DNA from: Nicoliella spurrieriana | GTDB lineage: Bacteria > Bacillota > Bacilli > Lactobacillales > Lactobacillaceae | Reading direction: 5' to 3' | Length of the DNA stretch: 64,000 bases | NCBI RefSeq assembly: GCF_023380205.1 | Contig: NZ_CP093361.1 | Span: 62,001 to 126,000, forward strand | Part shown: piece by piece, positions 4,840 through 56,964 of the stretch | How the letters are laid out: each line of letters opens with the position of its first letter | Numbering within the stretch: position 1 is the stretch's first letter | Position numbers and translations under genes: made by a program | The notes under the pieces: model-generated | What the model was told of the DNA's origin: nothing | Databases searched by the model: none | The model's input: the letters and a program-made list of their open reading frames with translations, nothing else

Positions 4840-5296
4840 TACTTTCCTTTAGAATCGCTTCAAAGTGGGCCCCATGGGGCTCAAAAGTGAGGGTCCGCGA
4901 ATGATCCCCCTGGTCATCATTACGCTTAAAAATAATGCGCAGGTAGTTATCAGGAAGTTCGTTGGCCACAAATTTAGACCACTCAACGACGTTGACCCCG
5001 TCACCATTAAAGTACTCATCCAGCCCTAATTCATCCCCGCTACCATCATCTAGGCGGTAAGCATCCATATGGTATAGCGGTAACCTGCCGTCTTGATACT
5101 CCCGAATAATGGTGAAGGTCGGACTTTTAACGTTACGCTTAATGCCGAGTCCCGCAGCTAATCCCTTGGTAAAGGTCGTTTTACCAGCTCCGAGGTCCCC
5201 ATCCAATAAAATCAGGTCCTCTGGCTTGAGATATGGTGCAATTGCTTGCCCTAGCTGCATTGTTGCTTCAGGTTTATCAACAGTGATTGTTTTCAA
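4820..5296 (-). CDS. tsaE: tRNA t6A biosynthesis ATPase TsaE
   Basis: Small P-loop ATPase that works with TsaB and TsaD (encoded at 51.5-53.8 kb here) to make the threonylcarbamoyl-adenosine at position 37 of ANN-decoding tRNAs. Walker A is GDLGAGKT (33-40). The family motifs SPTF (~58-61), MDAYRL (~77-82) and VVEW (~103-106) follow. At 158 residues it has normal length. It lies between pta and the GNAT gene with a 19-nt gap upstream and an overlap downstream, as in other lactobacilli. Confidence 0.93.
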   Translation of the reverse strand: MKTITVDKPEATMQLGQAIAPYLKPEDLILLDGDLGAGKTTFTKGLAAGLGIKRNVKSPTFTIIREYQDGRLPLYHMDAYRLDDGSGDELGLDEYFNGDGVNVVEWSKFVANELPDNYLRIIFKRNDDQGDHSRTLTFEPHGAHFEAILKESIDNNGK

Positions 5297-15615: not shown

Positions 15616-16626
15616 TTATAGTTGAGCGAACTTCAATAAAGTACGAACCATGTTACAAGTGAAGCCCCATTCGTTATCGTACCAAGTCCAAACCTTAACT
15701 AATTGGTCATCACCAACAGTAGTTACATCAGTTTGGGAAGGATCAAATACTGATCCGTGAGTATCACCAATGATATCACTTGAAACGATAGGATCTTCAG
15801 CGTAACCAAATGCATCGTTACCTTCAGTGTGCTTCTTCATTGCTGAGTTAATGTCTTCAGCAGTAACCTTCTTGTCCAAGATTGCAGTTAATTCAGTTAA
15901 TGAACCATCCACAACTGGAACCCGTTGAGCAACACCGTTTAATTTACCTTGTAATTCAGGAATAACTAAACCAAGCGCCTTAGCAGCACCAGTTGAATGA
16001 GGAATCGTATTTGCGCTAGCAGTACGGTTATTTCTCATCTTCTTACCTCTAGGACCATCTAAGATAGCTTGAGTAGAAGTAAAGGCATGGATAGTAGTCA
16101 TAGTACCAACCTTGATTCCGAAGTCTTTGTTCAAGAAGTAAGCTGATGGTGCAATACTACTAGTAGTACATGAACCAGCAGAAACAATCTTGTCATCGGA
16201 GTCAAGAGTATCCAAGTTAACACCAGGAACAACAGTCTTAATTTGACCAGCAGGAGCTGAAATCAAGACACGCTTTGCGCCAGCGTCCAAGTGAGCTTGT
16301 GACTTTTCAGCAGAAGTGTAGAATCCAGTACATTCAAGAACATAGTCAACACCATTGTTCTTTACCCAAGGAATTTGTGAAGCATCCTTTTCGGCATATA
16401 CAGGGTATTCCTTACCATCAACCACGATACCAGTGTCAGTTGAAGAAACCTTACCTGGGAACTTACCATGAGTTGAGTCATACTTTAATAAGTAAGCTAA
16501 CATTGATGGAGTAGTTAAATCATTGATTGCTACAACTTCGATGTCGCTTGAGTTAAGTTCGTGGATCCGCTTGAAAGCTAAACGTCCAATGCGTCCAAAA
16601 CCATTAATACCAATTTTTACAGTCAT
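15616..16626 (-). CDS. gap: Glyceraldehyde-3-phosphate dehydrogenase
   Basis: Oxidises and phosphorylates glyceraldehyde 3-phosphate with NAD+ to 1,3-bisphosphoglycerate. The Rossmann motif [12 protein letters not shown] opens the protein. The catalytic Cys153 sits in SCTTSSIAP and His180 in [16 protein letters not shown] closes the coenzyme site. The Asn that usually follows CTT is Ser here. The start is ATG 16626 (MTVKIGING) with AAAGGAGG upstream; the frame extends 20 codons further, but that part holds the promoter. 336 residues, normal. Unlike most lactobacilli, no cggR regulator gene lies upstream; a tRNA gene on the other strand takes its place. Confidence 0.97.
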
Positions 16627-16687
16627 ACTGAATTTTCCTCCTTTAGGAAATAATAAGATAAATATTATTTTAAAGCAGTACAACATT

Positions 16688-16716
16688 ATATTACCACTTT
16701 TGGCTGCTAGTGTCAG
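16688..16716 (-). promoter_or_regulatory. gap proximal promoter
   Basis: Minus strand CTGACA (16711-16716), 17-bp spacer, TAATAT (16688-16693), about 60 nt upstream of the gap start codon. Confidence 0.6.
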
Positions 16717-16792
16717 CCCCGTTGCTCAATAAATATTGATAAACCGGGCAACAATCAGCGAAGCACCAAGTAATAATATTATCTTTAAATGC

Positions 16793-16821
16793 AGTATATC
16801 AAGCGCTTTCATAAAATGCAA
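16793..16821 (-). promoter_or_regulatory. gap distal promoter with cre-like site
   Basis: Minus strand TTGCAT (16816-16821), exact 17-bp spacer, TATACT (16793-16798). Inside the spacer, ATCAAGCGCTTTCA (plus strand, 16798-16811) matches the CcpA catabolite-responsive element except for its first two bases. A CcpA dimer there would block RNA polymerase, so glucose repression of this promoter is the natural reading. A second GCGCT core lies just upstream (16828-16832). Promoter and site are sequence matches only. Confidence 0.5.
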
Positions 16822-16858
16822 AAGATAGCGCTCATTAATTAAAATTATCCTAACCCAC

Positions 16859-16887
16859 TTGAAATTAGAGATGATTTAAGGTATAGT
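16859..16887 (+). promoter_or_regulatory. tRNA-Arg promoter
   Basis: TTGAAA (16859-16864), 17-bp spacer, TATAGT (16882-16887), about 30 nt upstream of the tRNA 5' end. It is divergent from the gap promoters. Confidence 0.7.
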
Positions 16888-16918
16888 TTTATATTGTTTG
16901 ATTGAGTAATAAATAGCT

Positions 16919-16990
16919 GCGCCTGTAGTGTAATGGATAGCACGTAAGATTCCGGTTCTTGAGATGAGGGTTCGATTCCCCCCAGGCGCA
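16919..16990 (+). tRNA. tRNA-Arg(CCG)
   Basis: A 72-nt cloverleaf. The acceptor stem is GCGCCTG/CAGGCGC with discriminator A at 16990. The D arm has stem GTGT/GCAC. The anticodon loop is TTCCGGT, with CCG at 16952-16954 reading CGG (Arg); the T loop is TTCGATT. CCA is not encoded. The variable region is short (4 nt), and the T stem GAGGG/CCCCC has one A-C mismatch at its second pair, which is unusual. Promoter and a strong terminator flank it, so it is a single-gene transcript. Confidence 0.9.
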
Positions 16991-17001
16991 TAAATGAAAT
17001 A

Positions 17002-17052
17002 AACGCCCGTTATCATTTAATGCTCTAAGCATTAATGTAACGGGCGTTTTTA
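17002..17052 (+). terminator. tRNA-Arg terminator
   Basis: AACGCCCGTTA pairs with TAACGGGCGTT through a long stem (inner TTAATGC/GCATTAA) followed by TTTTATAT, directly after the tRNA. Confidence 0.85.
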
Positions 17053-17088
17053 TATATTTAATATTTGATTAAAAATAGCAATTAAAAA

Positions 17089-17125
17089 CTTAGTCAGCCT
17101 TAGTCATTAACTTAGTCAGTATAAT
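17089..17125 (+). promoter_or_regulatory. Triple CTTAGTCA repeat upstream of TATAAT
   Basis: Three exact copies of CTTAGTCA start at 17089, 17099 and 17111 (10- and 12-bp steps, about one helical turn). A perfect TATAAT follows at 17120-17125. There is no good -35 hexamer, so the repeats may bind an activator or other regulator that recruits polymerase to the downstream small transcript. Confidence 0.45.
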
Positions 17126-17131
17126 TTAAAA

Positions 17132-17190
17132 TAATAGTCCGTGTATGGTGGTAATGTGAGGTTGCTCAATTCATTTTGAGTAGCCTTTTC
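17132..17190 (+). ncRNA. Candidate ~60-nt small RNA
   Basis: Downstream of the TATAAT at 17120, a short stretch without an ORF ends in a 10-bp hairpin: GGTTGCTCAA (17160-17169), a 6-nt loop, TTGAGTAGCC (17176-17185), then TTTT. Two of its pairs are G-U on the plus-strand RNA and would be A-C mismatches in an antisense RNA, so the structure is selected, if at all, as a plus-strand transcript. No match to a family I know. Confidence 0.4.
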
Positions 17191-17612
17191 ACTTTGCATT
17201 GAGTGTCTAAACGCAAAATTACGTTATGATCTATTATCAGAATAGAAGGCCTACCTAAAATTAGGCATATCTCAATTAATATCAATATCACTGTTAATCA
17301 GACGCTCTCAGTTCTTAAGTTCATCCACTAAGTGATTAACTTGTTTAAAATTAAGCCTACTTCATTTAATAATACATAATATCGTAACGATTCACTAAGG
17401 TATTCAGCGCGTCCCTTACGATTATCAAGTTCTGATAAACCAAACTTGTTTTTTCTAAATAACCTACGTGCCAATTCTGAAAACGTAAATTTTCTTTCTA
17501 TAAAAATAACCTGCGTATCTGTTTTAGGTACGCAGACTAAGATGTACCCAATTTTGAGGATATATCTTACTATCATTACTTTGATAGAATTGCATTATAT
17601 TAGGGATTAAAG

Positions 17613-17835
17613 AATGCTACTTTAGCAGGATTGCCTTATATTTGGGCAAGCTAGAATCTACCAAAAAATGCTATTGATATGGTTCAGTATGATTTTTTTA
17701 TGTATGGCTTTGTCATGTTTTGACAAGTTTTCACTAAACCAAAATACACCATATAATGCTGTTTTAGCGGGCTTTACCTAAATTAAGGAAAGCCAAATGC
17801 AGAAAGTAGATTTGCTATCTTAAATGGATACTGTT
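17613..17835. repeat. Two diverged copies of an ~80-bp unit
   Basis: Copies begin at 17613 and 17755 (offset 142). Both start AATGCT, continue with TTTAGC-x-GG, a hairpin of the CCT...GG type, and end with TGCTAT and ATGG. Similarity is partial, indicating an old duplication. Confidence 0.35.
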
Positions 17836-18006
17836 TTATTCAGCTTTCAGTAAATTACAGAAAGCGATATCAATACTATTTAGATACTAAAAAAGAGACT
17901 GCAATTAAGCAATCTCTTTCTTAATATATGCTTGTAGTGCCTTTGAAAGCACAAGCAAGCTTAACATCGATTTAAATAATGAGTGGCTATCTCACTATTC
18001 TGGGAA

Positions 18007-18048
18007 GAGAAATCTTCCTTTATGAAATCAATAATTATAATATATTAA
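18007..18048 (+). pseudogene. Decayed copy of the Fst-like toxin start
   Basis: The stretch GAGAAATCTTCCTTTATGAA (18007 on) closely repeats the leader and start of the toxin gene 167 bp downstream (GAGAAATTTTCCTTTTATGA). After ATG AAA TCA the frame stops within nine codons (TAA at 18046-18048), so no toxin can be made. It appears to be a remnant of a tandem locus. Confidence 0.4.
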
Positions 18049-18110
18049 TCCGGTTAACATGTCAAAAATAGTGAATAGCAATAAATAGGTTTTAATATTA
18101 ATAAAATAAC

Positions 18111-18119
18111 TGATATAAT
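18111..18119 (+). promoter_or_regulatory. Extended -10 promoter of the Fst-like toxin
   Basis: TGATATAAT combines a TG extension with a perfect TATAAT (18114-18119). The -35 region is AT-rich and weak. It would give a leader of about 63 nt ahead of the toxin ATG. Confidence 0.5.
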
Positions 18120-18188
18120 AACAACCAGTGTCGCATCAAACCCTAATGGCTAAGGGAATAGACGCTAGAAAGGAGAAATTTTCCTTTT

Positions 18189-18284
18189 ATGAAATCATTA
18201 GTTTATAAAATCTTAACTAAAATTGTTTTACCTGTAACTTACGCAGTTATAAGTGGGTTAATTCTTCATTTATTAATCAAATAG
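18189..18284 (+). CDS. Fst-like type I toxin peptide (candidate)
   Basis: A 31-residue ORF, MKSLVYKILTKIVLP at the start and SGLILHLLIK at the end. It has a short N-terminus, one hydrophobic span with a central Pro, and a positively charged end, the shape of Fst/Ldr-type membrane toxins. The leader supports this. AAAGGAG pairs with CCTTTT next to the ATG, hiding the ribosome site as in Fst mRNA. Further upstream AGTGTC/GACGCT encloses CCCT/AGGG. An extended -10 and a terminator bracket the unit, and a decayed second copy lies upstream. No antisense antitoxin promoter is obvious. The toxin role is inference from shape and context. Confidence 0.5.
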   Translation: MKSLVYKILTKIVLPVTYAVISGLILHLLIK

Positions 18285-18301
18285 CAATAGTTAAGTAATA
18301 G

Positions 18302-18340
18302 GACACGAGCTGACTAATAATCATGCTTGTGTTTTTATTT
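18302..18340 (+). terminator. Terminator after the Fst-like toxin
   Basis: ACACGAGC (18302-18309) pairs with GCTTGTGT (one G-U pair) across an AT loop, followed by TTTTATTTT. The G-U pair suits a plus-strand transcript. In par-type loci this hairpin is shared with the antitoxin RNA; the minus-strand side here has no T-run. Confidence 0.55.
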
Positions 18341-18368
18341 TAATATATTGTTTATGATATTCAAGGAA

Positions 18369-18468
18369 TAACGTTTCGTTACCCCTATAAGATGAGGCAC
18401 TGTTTTAGGATTCCATAAATAGATGAGGTCGTACTTCACGATCCCACAAGGGTTCTAACAAAACGTTA
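18369..18468. repeat. Degenerate ~30-bp tandem repeat inside an inverted repeat
   Basis: Two adjacent units begin ATGAGG at 18392 and 18423 (31 and 30 bp). They share ATGAGG, a T-rich centre and GAT(T/C)CCA near the end. A related piece precedes them. An 8-bp perfect inverted repeat encloses the block: TAACGTTT (18369-18376) and AAACGTTA (18461-18468). No spacers, so not a CRISPR array. Confidence 0.35.
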
Positions 18469-18484
18469 AAAGTCCCCCCTGCTT

Positions 18485-18517
18485 AAAAAGATATGCTCAA
18501 TTTTGGGCATATGCTTT
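18485..18517 (-). terminator. Possible minus-strand terminator
   Basis: On the minus strand GCATATGCCC..GAGCATATC folds into a hairpin followed by TTTTT. No intact minus-strand gene lies just upstream, so it may be a relic. Confidence 0.35.
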
Positions 18518-18770
18518 ACCCATCCCTATAAGAATGCTTCGTGGTGGTATGATTTGATAAATGTTCAAATATAAATGTTTTACTGTATTATAATTATTAA
18601 TTTTGCAACCTTGCATTATTATTTTATCAACGATCAATTAATCAATTCCTTGCTATTAATCTATCTTATATAATTTAATAAGTGATGAGTTGTTACGTTT
18701 TTTTACTATAACTATTAACAGATGAATATTCAATATTTCTTAGCAATTCTAGCAATTATCACCCTATATT

Positions 18771-19056
18771 TTATCTATGAATAACGGGATGAGCGTTTAA
18801 TGACTCATTAAATAATTGCTCAATAATAATCCCTCTAGGCCCATCTAACTGTTCTTTTGGAATTGTCATTAAACGGTTCTTTCATTGAATAAACTAGCTT
18901 ATTCAATTGATTATTATTAAACTTAGTTACGTGGTTAATGTTCAAGTTAAAATGATTAGCAATCATCTTACTATTAGGGCGTTTACTGTAATCATCATAA
19001 TAATAAATATAAGCTAGGATTTCACGCTCCTCTTTAGTTAAGTAGGATAACCTATA
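18771..19056 (-). pseudogene. Broken helix-turn-helix protein gene
   Basis: On the minus strand a frame without a start codon reads LSYLTKEEREILAYIYYY, then RPNSKMIANHFNLNINHVT, and stops at 18835-18837. Another frame continues with MTIPKEQLDGPRGIIIEQL and ends at 18771-18773. The first part has the spacing of a helix-turn-helix (an 'SKMIANHFNL' recognition-type segment). Together they look like one truncated and frameshifted DNA-binding protein. The family is not recognised. Confidence 0.4.
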
Positions 19057-19060
19057 AAGA

Positions 19061-19096
19061 ATGATTTAATCACTAGTGCTCCTATGATTAAATCAT
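19061..19096. terminator. 12-bp inverted repeat downstream of the secreted-protein gene
   Basis: ATGATTTAATCA (19061-19072) and TGATTAAATCAT (19085-19096) are perfect inverted repeats around a 12-nt loop. On the minus strand TTCTTTATA follows. It probably ends the transcript of the secreted-protein gene; the stem is AT-rich, so it may be weak. Confidence 0.5.
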
Positions 19097-19140
19097 TTCA
19101 GGGTTTAGTCATAGCAACTCCTATCATTCAAGTTAGTAAA

Positions 19141-20304
19141 CTAACTCAACTGACTATATTTGGTTTTATTAACCTTATATTTATTTAGTACTTCTTTATA
19201 ACGCTTATTCGCTGCTTTTAATTTCTTATTAAGAGCAACCCTGGCCTTACTACTTTTAGATTTTTTAACTGCCCTTCTAGCTTCTTGAACTTGCTTTTTA
19301 GACCGCTCGACACTTTTTTGGGACTTTTGGTAGGCCCGTTTAATTAACTTAGCTTGTGATTTAGCAGAATTAGATTTACTTGTGTCCGTCACTGAAGATG
19401 CGCCGCTAGAGCTCGATGTGTTTAATGATGAATCACTATTTGTAGCATTAGAAGACACAGTGTTCATAGCATTAGAAGTGTTATCAGAAGAAGTGGTAGA
19501 ACCCAATGATGGATTTAATTGTAATAACTGCCCAATCTCTGTCGATTTACTAGATATAACCCCTTGACTAACGAGATCACGAGTCATTCTTGAAATTCCT
19601 GAAGTTTCATAACTAAATGTATCACTAATCGTACTTGCACTATCATCAGCAAAACCAACAATCACCTTGTTATAAGAACTAACTGTATTGGACGCTGCAC
19701 TTGAAAATGAAGCATTTGAAGACCTTGATGGATCGGCATCATATACTGAATCAGCATAAGATGCCATATCTGAAAGAGAATCATAAGCTGAATTCAAGGA
19801 TGATTTAATTTGACTATTTTCACTCATCATAGAAGTTTCTGCTGCTGATACTTGAAAGAAATTAGATACAGCAGCCGAATATTCGGAAGCAGTGATTGAT
19901 CTAGGAGTATCATCTTCATATGATTGATAAATAACAGACCCCAGCTCTTTATCTAAACTCTGATATTTAGAATAATTAGAATCGGCGACTGAACTATAAG
20001 CTGACGCTAAACTATCTACGGCATTAGATGCACCACCATAAACACTATTAGCATAATACTGTGGGTACGTAGTTTCATCATCATAATAATCGCCATTAGC
20101 CATACTACCCGGATTTGCAGATAATTGTGCATAAGTAGGCAAAGTACTATCTGCATGGGCAATTGGAGTTGTGTAAGAATTAATCTCATAATTAGATATC
20201 CCGTATCCAACCGTTACCAAAGTCGCAGTTGTGATCAAAGCAACCACCCATCTCTTACCTGACTTATATAGACGGTAATGTTCTTTATTAGTCTTATTAC
20301 TCAT
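19141..20304 (-). CDS. Secreted serine-rich protein, KxYKxGKxW signal peptide
   Basis: A 387-residue exported protein of unknown role. The N-terminus has HYRLYKSGKRWVVALITTA, matching the KxYKxGKxW signal type of lactobacilli, and cleavage is likely after AHA near residue 51. The body is rich in Ser, Ala, Asp and Tyr. It is followed by a Ser/Thr/Asn linker and a C-terminal ~75-residue coiled-coil-like region very rich in Lys and Arg (KRAYQKSQKSVERSKKQVQE). No LPxTG motif or wall-binding repeat is visible; the cationic end could hold it to teichoic acids. Start ATG 20304 follows GGGGGAGA; the frame continues 11 codons upstream. Alone among degraded DNA, it is probably an accessory gene. Confidence 0.75.
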   Translation of the reverse strand: MSNKTNKEHYRLYKSGKRWVVALITTATLVTVGYGISNYEINSYTTPIAHADSTLPTYAQLSANPGSMANGDYYDDETTYPQYYANSVYGGASNAVDSLASAYSSVADSNYSKYQSLDKELGSVIYQSYEDDTPRSITASEYSAAVSNFFQVSAAETSMMSENSQIKSSLNSAYDSLSDMASYADSVYDADPSRSSNASFSSAASNTVSSYNKVIVGFADDSASTISDTFSYETSGISRMTRDLVSQGVISSKSTEIGQLLQLNPSLGSTTSSDNTSNAMNTVSSNATNSDSSLNTSSSSGASSVTDTSKSNSAKSQAKLIKRAYQKSQKSVERSKKQVQEARRAVKKSKSSKARVALNKKLKAANKRYKEVLNKYKVNKTKYSQLS

Positions 20305-20583
20305 AGTTATCTCCCCCAAGGTTATTAGTATGAACATAATAACACTAATTAAGATAATTCAATAATTTTATAGATAAAAAATAAATCCACAATTGATAAT
20401 TAATTATAAATATAGTTCAATTTCAAAACCAAATGCAATTTATGGAATAACAAACAATTAACTATCCTTAGGTATGATTAGCATCCCTATTCTTAATCAT
20501 AGTTAATATGTTTTATGCAGATTTAAATCTATACCGATTCTCAGGTACTTTGTTTTTCACTTTCTTACTTCACGGGCAAATGT
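20305..20583. other. Divergent intergenic region, secreted protein / clpP
   Basis: AT-rich DNA with no ORF of note. On the minus strand TTGTGG and TAAAAT (16-bp spacing, around 20365-20390) could drive the secreted-protein gene; this is weak. The clpP promoter lies at its right end. Confidence 0.4.
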
Positions 20584-55938: not shown

Positions 55939-56964
55939 TTATTCCAATTTCTCAAGCACCCGCAATGTCGTTGTTTCCAAAATGGTTTGAAAGTTTAAGT
56001 TAGCAGCTAACGCACCATTATTTTTCAGTACTAATTCAATGATTTCAAGTAATTGCATTTTCGGAATTTTAAATGCAATTTGGTGAATTTGATCCTTAAT
56101 TTGTGGAAAACTTAACTCCGCATCAGCGACTGCATTAAATTTTACATCTAATACGTCCCGCCATACTTCAATTAGCATGTCGATCGTAATCGCTTTGGCA
56201 GCTTGATTATTAATTAATGGGACGATATCGGTCTGCACCATCGTAAATGCAACTGGACTGTGTTTATTAAGTTGTAAAAACCATTGACTAATGGCGGTTT
56301 GAAGCTTAGCGAACCAATCATTTTCAAACCATTCGTGCACCGTCTGGAGGTTATTAGTCAGCATTGTGATCAAATGAAAGTAATTCCGATCAATTCCCAT
56401 TTGAGCTAATTCTTTACTAAATACAGCTGGTGCAATTGCTGGAAAATCAACCAGCTGGGTTCGTGAAACGATCGTTGGTAATACCAATGATTTATTGTTG
56501 GTTAATAAAAACGAAACCACGTTGCCAACTGGTTCTTCAATGAACTTTAGGAGACTATTGGCGGCTTCGGTCGTCATTTTATCAGCACCATTAATGATGA
56601 AGGCCTTTTGATTCCCCTCAACCGCACTCTTCGAAAATTCAGCCTTTAGCATCCGCACTTGGTCAATTTTAATGCTAGCACCATCCGGCTGGACGATTAA
56701 AACATCTGGATGTTGACGATTAGCAATCCGAATGCACTCATTACACTGTCCACAGGGACGGCCGTTAACTGGATGTTCACAAAACAACGCCATCGTTACC
56801 TGAAGGGCAACTGCTAACTTTCCGGACCCTGATTCACCATTAAATAAGTACGCATGCGTTAAATCATGGTTGGTAACGACCCGTGCAAAATGCTCAACCA
56901 GCTGTGGTTGCTTAAATTCAGCATCACTAACGACTGTTTTGGCAACTGATTGTTCAGTAGACAT
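55939..56964 (-). CDS. holB: DNA polymerase III subunit delta'
   Basis: Clamp-loader subunit, partner of DnaX (59-61 kb). The 341 residues have AYLFNGESGSGKLAVAL (P-loop region), a zinc module (CEHPVNGRPCGQCNEC), IIDGADKMTTEAANSLLK-like ADKM motif and LLKFIEEP. The C-terminal domain is diverged. It starts one base inside the end of darA, so the two are coupled. Confidence 0.92.
   Translation of the reverse strand: MSTEQSVAKTVVSDAEFKQPQLVEHFARVVTNHDLTHAYLFNGESGSGKLAVALQVTMALFCEHPVNGRPCGQCNECIRIANRQHPDVLIVQPDGASIKIDQVRMLKAEFSKSAVEGNQKAFIINGADKMTTEAANSLLKFIEEPVGNVVSFLLTNNKSLVLPTIVSRTQLVDFPAIAPAVFSKELAQMGIDRNYFHLITMLTNNLQTVHEWFENDWFAKLQTAISQWFLQLNKHSPVAFTMVQTDIVPLINNQAAKAITIDMLIEVWRDVLDVKFNAVADAELSFPQIKDQIHQIAFKIPKMQLLEIIELVLKNNGALAANLNFQTILETTTLRVLEKLE

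Follow-up and report, generated by a model that had tools for sequence, protein, structure and literature searches.

What are the three 8-nt repeats and the hairpin that stand behind a tRNA-Arg(CCG) gene of Nicoliella spurrieriana? The window, i.e. the whole stretch of 64,000 nt analysed here, comes from a Lactobacillaceae genome of 2.05 Mb (G000; G denotes genomes and L loci) and was compared with one congener genome. An earlier note had proposed a novel small RNA at this locus, starting behind a TATAAT promoter, ending at the hairpin and controlled by an activator bound to the repeats in place of a -35 element. The features of the locus are as follows.

16918-16991, + strand: tRNA-Arg(CCG) gene, its 3' end being the presumed att core (ARAGORN, Rfam tRNA)
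17000-20573, no strand: putative island relic, from tRNA-Arg to clpP (blastn against the congener locus L057; integrase searches negative)
17001-17049, + strand: T1, a long hairpin terminator adjoining tRNA-Arg (perfect 12-bp inverted repeat 17001-17012/17038-17049, then a T run)
17089-17096, + strand: putative arm-type repeat 1, CTTAGTCA, 98 nt past the tRNA
17099-17106, + strand: putative arm-type repeat 2, CTTAGTCA, 108 nt past the tRNA
17109-17718, + strand: duplicated block, 82% identical to one behind tRNA-Lys in the same genome (L021)
17111-17118, + strand: putative arm-type repeat 3, CTTAGTCA, 120 nt past the tRNA
17120-17125, + strand: TATAAT
17139-17158, + strand: G-rich word 5' of the T2 hairpin (alignments); the same place in intact islands holds the complement of the integrase leader
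17160-17189, + strand: T2, hairpin GGTTGCTCAA/TTGAGTAGCC (17160-17185) followed by TTTT, the presumed 3' end of an RNA (fold z, covariation)
18189-18284, + strand: ORF for a 31-residue hydrophobic peptide inside the relic (translation)

A probable island relic behind tRNA-Arg and the recurrence of its hairpin

The sequence elements were all found where the earlier note had placed them, namely three exact CTTAGTCA words spaced 10 and 12 nt apart, the TATAAT, and the hairpin, which is followed by a T run and has two G-U pairs in the plus-strand RNA. CTTAGTCA occurs five times in the whole window against a shuffle mean of 1.5, a count reached in 1 of 100 shuffles. The fold of 17126-17195 has a z of -3.0 (0 of 200 shuffles as good), and 16600-18600 contains two terminator-like sites, T2 among them, where 0.7 are expected. 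No known Rfam RNA scored above the gathering cutoff at the locus, the only matches in the window being tRNA and SRP RNA.

Homology between the window and the congener ends at 16999, about 8 nt past tRNA-Arg, and restarts at 20574 (blastn), the interval between tRNA-Arg and clpP being ~3.6 kb in the window vs ~0.55 kb in the congener. No integrase was detected in this interval by tblastn or by a genome search with the island integrases described below. Based on the homology gap and the undetected integrase, we read the locus as the end of a relic island. A second copy of the att core was not found near the relic, the next match lying at 56610 with 3 mismatches. The locus is probably the attL end of a phage-satellite-like island that has decayed, with integrase arm sites and the remnant of an antisense element once borne by attP. 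The island would have integrated at the 3' end of tRNA-Arg(CCG), leaving its attL side in the window, and the word at 17139-17158 together with the hairpin at 17160-17189 would be what remains of the antisense element.

Within the relic, the ORF at 18189-18284 encodes MKSLVYKILTKIVLPVTYAVISGLILHLLIK, with a ribosome site and, behind it, terminator-like sequence, which we take by its look to be a type I toxin-like peptide. Around it, the sequence shares 71% identity with a region behind the congener tmRNA, where the frame is broken (by eye). On the minus strand, 19141-20337 encodes a 398-residue protein with a KxYKxGKxW signal peptide (Pfam PF19258).

A chance origin of the arrangement is opposed by its recurrence: there are two further copies in G000, behind tRNA-Lys and behind the tmRNA gene (L043), and two in the congener, again behind tRNA-Lys and tmRNA (L023), none being shown at the congener tRNA-Arg. 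Beyond the tRNA, the tRNA-Lys copies of the two species match only over the repeat-hairpin stretch, and the tmRNA copy of G000 has a different stem sequence with the same pairing. Behind that tmRNA copy lies a pair that looks like the toxin-antitoxin pair HigB/HigA (L043, 5501-6953), and behind the congener tmRNA a 518-residue protein that looks like a reverse transcriptase (L023, 6761-8317).

The hairpin is conserved in relatives. Within the genus (five copies), both partners have changed in 4 of 10 pairs; among 13 copies, 6 of 8 pairs covary in this way (20 such cells), with a covariation score reached by 0 of 500 shuffles. When the partner was slid by 1-3 columns, at most three such pairs remained and 53.8% were paired vs 93.3% unslid. 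A covariance-type search of the family, as proposed in the note, returned 20 matches in 14 of 397 Lactobacillaceae genomes, all behind tRNA or tmRNA genes, with 13 in the model and 7 outside it. The model used (R3) has its right stem arm shifted by two columns and served for finding copies only, the pair counts being taken from the correct structure. In an order sample of 325 genomes, only G000 gave a match. Because of this patchy occurrence, a host small RNA inherited by descent was dropped as a candidate.

The exact hairpin pattern was present in five stretches of the genome contigs, of which two are the known copies of Lactobacillus sp. Sy-1, mentioned in PMC13134047 as close to Nicoliella, and three are in unrelated taxa. 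Three hairpin patterns found nothing in a scan of viral contigs, nor did blastn of the window region against phages; the same search with L098 found 18 phage records, matching its tmRNA end only. Weak matches of the model R1 other than L043 were discarded as ordinary terminators by look. A start-stop ORF was likewise rejected: the words of the genus copies end in ATG plus a stop codon (TGA, TAA, TAA, TAG and TAG, by eye), whereas copies of other genera, e.g. L098, are without ATG. Within the genus, this ATG follows the last repeat at 35, 35, 45, 42 and 39 nt in the five copies (counted by eye).

The promoter fared less well. Sigma-70 promoters were not enriched before the hairpin over the 20 loci (p<=0.05 in 1 of 20; mean p 0.49), the one locus being the window itself (p=0.02, TTAACT-17-AATAAT). 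The position of TATAAT also varies among the other genus copies (by eye).

Repeats at the ends of tRNA and tmRNA islands

Pairs of CTTAGTCA words 2-4 nt apart (CTTAGTCAN{2,4}CTTAGTCA) were sought in 397 genomes, and 12 of these, from 7 genera, yielded 19 matches. As the reversed control had 11 matches in 8 genomes, the repeat pattern carries little weight by itself, and the loci in G295, G349, G331 and G213 were set aside as chance by look.

In three genomes, two CTTAGTCA clusters lie 8-14 kb apart, and the intervals between them are islands. That of G346 (L098) has the order tmRNA, three repeats, replication-type genes, a repressor-like gene, an integrase gene, two repeats and a 16-nt copy of the tmRNA end; that of G297 (L099) is at tRNA-Glu with an 18-nt core; and that of G125 (L100) is at tmRNA with a 45-nt core and holds genes that look like terminase and portal genes. 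The island of G245 (L107) has a related integrase, a core of 19 nt and, on both sides, TGACAGTA words. The far-end CTTAGTCA cluster of L098 and L099 directly adjoins the integrase stop. All three integrases scanned have Arm-DNA-bind_4, SAM_3 and Phage_integrase domains. L107 carries tandem islands, with a second hairpin after an attR core (4965-5029).

Exact 7-mer repeats 9-13 nt apart occur at +61..+200 in 15 of the 20 hairpin loci, and 13 of these start at +91..+105. Such pairs appear in 4-11% of shuffles, those of L023 and L128 being no better than shuffles, and the repeated words differ between loci. In the free phage TMW 1.706 P1, ACGTAATCA words flank a stretch after its integrase; this phage has repeats but neither such a hairpin nor pairing. 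Of 81 viral stretches with CTTAGTCA pairs, 80 were compared, giving one weak integrase match, more than 1 kb from the repeats.

In Oenococcus oeni prophages, phage-specific direct repeats flanking a core at the tRNA 3' end are described as proposed sites of the integrase N-terminus, and insertions are reported at tRNA-Glu, -Lys and -Leu and also near walKR (PMC8074189). The layout is the same as here as far as that account goes, with different repeat sequences and with only one side retained in the window; the word 'terminator' does not occur in its main text. Direct repeats on both arms outside the core are present in four of our islands, and the window shows them for the attL side, the only one it has. 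The clusters at both ends, the arm-binding domain, the near-constant geometry and the parallels in phages and Oenococcus lead us to read the CTTAGTCA repeats as putative arm-type sites of a tyrosine integrase, a known kind of element.

Response-regulator-controlled multicopy small RNAs are known for CiaR- and LisR-type regulators, and an activator binding the CTTAGTCA triplet in front of a small RNA would be a comparable case; several copies per genome with repeats in front fit such a scheme. Its -35-replacing activator sites, however, are hard to reconcile with repeats that stand at both ends of four islands, vary in sequence from island to island and keep a near-constant distance to the att core, and not to the hairpin, nor do the loci, found in 14 of 397 family genomes and in G000 only of the 325 in the order sample, show other than a patchy distribution. 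We regard this explanation as very improbable, and the repeats are probably not activator sites. Patterns of this kind near tRNA genes are easily mistaken for operators, and here that reading is corrected.

A CtsR operator was considered as well. The CtsR heat-shock operator consists of RGTCAAA repeats 10 nt apart before heat-shock genes; the window words lack AAA and are spaced 10 and 12 nt, and this candidate was rejected. In G000, a TAGTCA pair does precede a ctsR-like gene. The sequence there is TAGTCAAGATTAGTCA (L044, ~1813), and the congener has it at the matching position behind this tRNA cluster (L045, ~1937). It is presumably a CtsR-type box and probably unrelated to the arm repeats.

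Complementarity between island words and integrase leaders

In a first run, the word before the hairpin was paired with the starts of the listed frames of its island. The integrase leader was the best of 14 frames in G346 (-21.5 vs -16.2+-2.6 for shuffled words) and the best of 8 in G297 (-23.1 vs -11.4+-2.0), while L107, whose frame list lacked the integrase start, gave no signal. For six islands reached by way of the hairpin (the hairpin model includes four; 20-nt words set by hand; the true start of G245 computed apart), the own pairs reached -24.4, -26.1, -27.8, -20.2, -24.3 and -23.5 kcal/mol, the integrase leader was the best of its island, and the own assignment was the best of 720 permutations. 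The word of G332 fits the leader of its relative G245 better than its own. A permutation test with hand-picked words (0 of 20,000) is biased, as the words had been chosen from their own pairing; in it, the RNAs of G245, G332 and G236 were cut before the hairpin by the T-run rule.

An independent set was drawn through the integrase: 145 of 397 genomes had integrase matches, and 20 regions were taken from the upper part of the list, with the islands already used excluded. Eleven regions with an att pair at a tRNA or tmRNA gene were scored, the nine without such a pair being left out. Paired with the integrase leader, the stretch at +60..+260 outranked all other same-strand segments (62-105 per island) in 7 of the 11 islands and was one of the best four in 9. 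It came second in G110 (112 controls) and fourth in G226 (83 controls), and in G326 (L278) 14 of 102 did better. In the tandem island G035a (L270), it ranked 80 of 155 with the outer core and reached -29.4 with the nearer core, which was one of three tried, was chosen after the energies had been seen and enters the 17-island matrix. At this tRNA-Lys, two integrases with different words lie 8.7 kb apart (L270/L271). Five hairpin-found islands subjected to the same ranking gave four first places, and G332 had 12 of 108 better.

In a whole-segment matrix of 17 islands, own pairs averaged -31.0 and foreign pairs -19.6 kcal/mol, and 0 of 20,000 permutations was as low. The 11 integrase-chosen islands alone gave -32.2 vs -19.5, with the own pair lowest in 8 of 11 rows and again 0 of 20,000. 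Over all 17, the own pair was lowest in no more than 9 rows, in part owing to the close kinship of some islands. Thus, the complementarity to the translation start region is beyond chance and island-specific. A comparable case was seen in the phage JB1P3 of Lacticaseibacillus rhamnosus JB-1, with 11 nt of perfect pairing and -33.2. The 37 other segments gave -20.5+-3.7, with -32.3 for one of them.

The words themselves are unrelated between most islands and range from G-rich to GC-mixed (CGGGCGGT, TGGGGAATGG, GCGCCCAGCCGTAAA, TGCGAAGGGCGG); that of G035b is 27 nt long, with 26 positions matching. In 12 of 16 islands, the target word stops 3-5 nt short of the Shine-Dalgarno sequence, and the computed duplex starts inside the repeats in G332, G207 and G110. 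All 17 islands have the order RNA gene end or core, repeats, word and terminator hairpin. The terminator-like element lies across the core from the integrase gene and on its strand, a placement like that of a retroregulator, in 17 of 17, and this was selected by the att-pair rule, which required the integrase gene to be distant from, and on the same strand as, the RNA gene. In the inverted island of G125 (L100), where the integrase gene adjoins the tmRNA, the placement agrees: the opposite end of the island has a perfect match of 14 nt with a hairpin behind it (by eye), and here too the core separates it from the integrase gene. Its energy is -26.8 vs -27.4 and -26.5 for same-strand rivals. 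As the rule fixed the orientation elsewhere, G125 is the sole hint that the element keeps a fixed relation to the integrase gene through attP, and not to the tRNA promoter.

Could the hairpin be just a second terminator, insulating the island from tRNA read-through or, like lambda tI, ending the integrase mRNA of the circular form, with a functionless word? Three observations agree with this: all 17 islands have a T-run hairpin on the tRNA strand, no terminator lies between the integrase stop and the core in L098, L099 and L107, and promoters are not enriched before the hairpin. We nevertheless consider it unlikely, for it leaves unexplained why the leader is matched island by island (0 of 20,000 permutations).

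By our own reading, 10 of 16 islands have the word a third time, 1.3-1.9 kb upstream of the integrase gene, at a level clearly higher than that of shuffled words. This further copy was seen at L098 6424, L099 ~5636 and L107 ~7954, on the opposite strand and just behind a coding frame (by eye). The word could then be a DNA operator of an excisionase- or repressor-like regulator, repeated at attL, in the integrase leader and at a third place in ~10 of 16 islands. The differences between word and target (6 G-U, 4 A-C and 1 other in 209 positions) have no strand preference, as an operator would allow. Yet there is no consensus between the words of unrelated islands, one word is 27 nt long, and the words stand directly before a hairpin and T run in 17 of 17 and at 3-5 nt from the Shine-Dalgarno in 12 of 16, so that we judge an operator to be distinctly unlikely.

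A possible coupling of integrase synthesis to the integration state

Instead, the word and hairpin likely form a predicted antisense RNA directed at the integrase. The case for RNA is made by the free drift of the words, the hairpin and T run after the word, and the target's usual place before the Shine-Dalgarno; base pairing would allow words to differ as widely as they do between islands. For the novel small RNA ending at the hairpin that the earlier note had envisaged, the recurrence, the compensatory changes and a matching target in intact islands speak in favour, and against it stands that no promoter stands out. In intact islands, the RNA ending at the hairpin would carry the word, pair with the leader of the integrase mRNA and set the amount of integrase. 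In the circular element, the attachment core would stand between the word and the integrase gene; as integration parts the two, the control might vary with the integration state. Transcription of the element, its action as an RNA and the sign of that action we infer from these comparisons.

A sensor of the integration state, by which Lactobacillaceae islands would let integrase track the circular, integrated or induced state through an island-specific word across attP and a further copy, both pairing with the integrase leader, is a tentative proposal to which we give a little less than an even chance. Two points weigh against the antisense RNA. A T1-like hairpin with a T run was found by scan at the same place in L098 and L107, and was absent in L099; lying between the junction and the word, it should stop read-through. 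Moreover, the types of word/target mismatch seem to favour neither an RNA nor a DNA site.

Cofolding with its own RNA raises the unpaired probability of the Shine-Dalgarno in 16 of 16 islands, and foreign RNAs likewise free it in 3 of 6 (G297, G245 and G332). In the same three islands only, of six tested, masking of the Shine-Dalgarno exceeds that of shuffled leaders, by ~2-3 standard deviations; in G410 and G326 it is not masked to begin with (0.79). Blocking of the ribosome is slightly favoured over unmasking of a folded-away Shine-Dalgarno, the choice being nearly balanced. The lean to repression comes from GcvB-yifK, in which pairing of the small RNA immediately upstream of the Shine-Dalgarno blocks translation (PMC3879156); as treated there, GcvB is a host small RNA with several targets, as opposed to the one island-borne target here.

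Antisense RNAs against the leaders of recombinases or transposases, at the translation start region, have precedents in mobile elements. For RNA-OUT of IS10 and art200 of IS200, a short RNA of the mobile element is aimed at the translation start region of the moving enzyme, as predicted here; unlike these, the island word is not opposite its target but several kb off and beyond the attachment site, and its short complementarity is more like that of a trans-acting small RNA. In lambda, sib acts in cis through RNase III cleavage of the int mRNA. Like lambda sib/tI, the island element is a hairpin across attP from the integrase gene and is parted from it by integration; unlike sib, it includes a word whose complement lies in the integrase leader near the Shine-Dalgarno. 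Retroregulation of int by lambda sib/tI is touched on in PMC2951348. Searches of an open-access paper library gave no earlier description of an integrase-directed word and hairpin element, which hints that, next to arm-type repeats of a known kind, this element is apparently undescribed.

Phage satellites and prophages should make integrase only on entry into or exit from the chromosome, and a short RNA word linked to this site of attachment would couple integrase synthesis to the integration state in a simple manner. If the RNA-sensor reading is true, words drift freely because only complementarity matters, and each island would have private control without cross-talk with its neighbours. The word could in this way explain the independence of neighbouring islands with similar integrases. 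It could be read from the sequence alone and would help to mark island ends.

For the window word, no outlier was found among 36 integrase upstream regions, and this copy appears to be an orphan relic whose pairing partner would be gone. The word of the tmRNA copy in G000 (L043) pairs with the leader of a relic integrase of the congener at -21.9 (0 of 300 shuffles), the best of 36 leaders; among the 22 tests of words against two relic leaders, there were several weak values of 0.01-0.05 besides that of L043. On the other contig of G000, a degraded integrase of the same family is present in two pieces (L237, 3895-6458).
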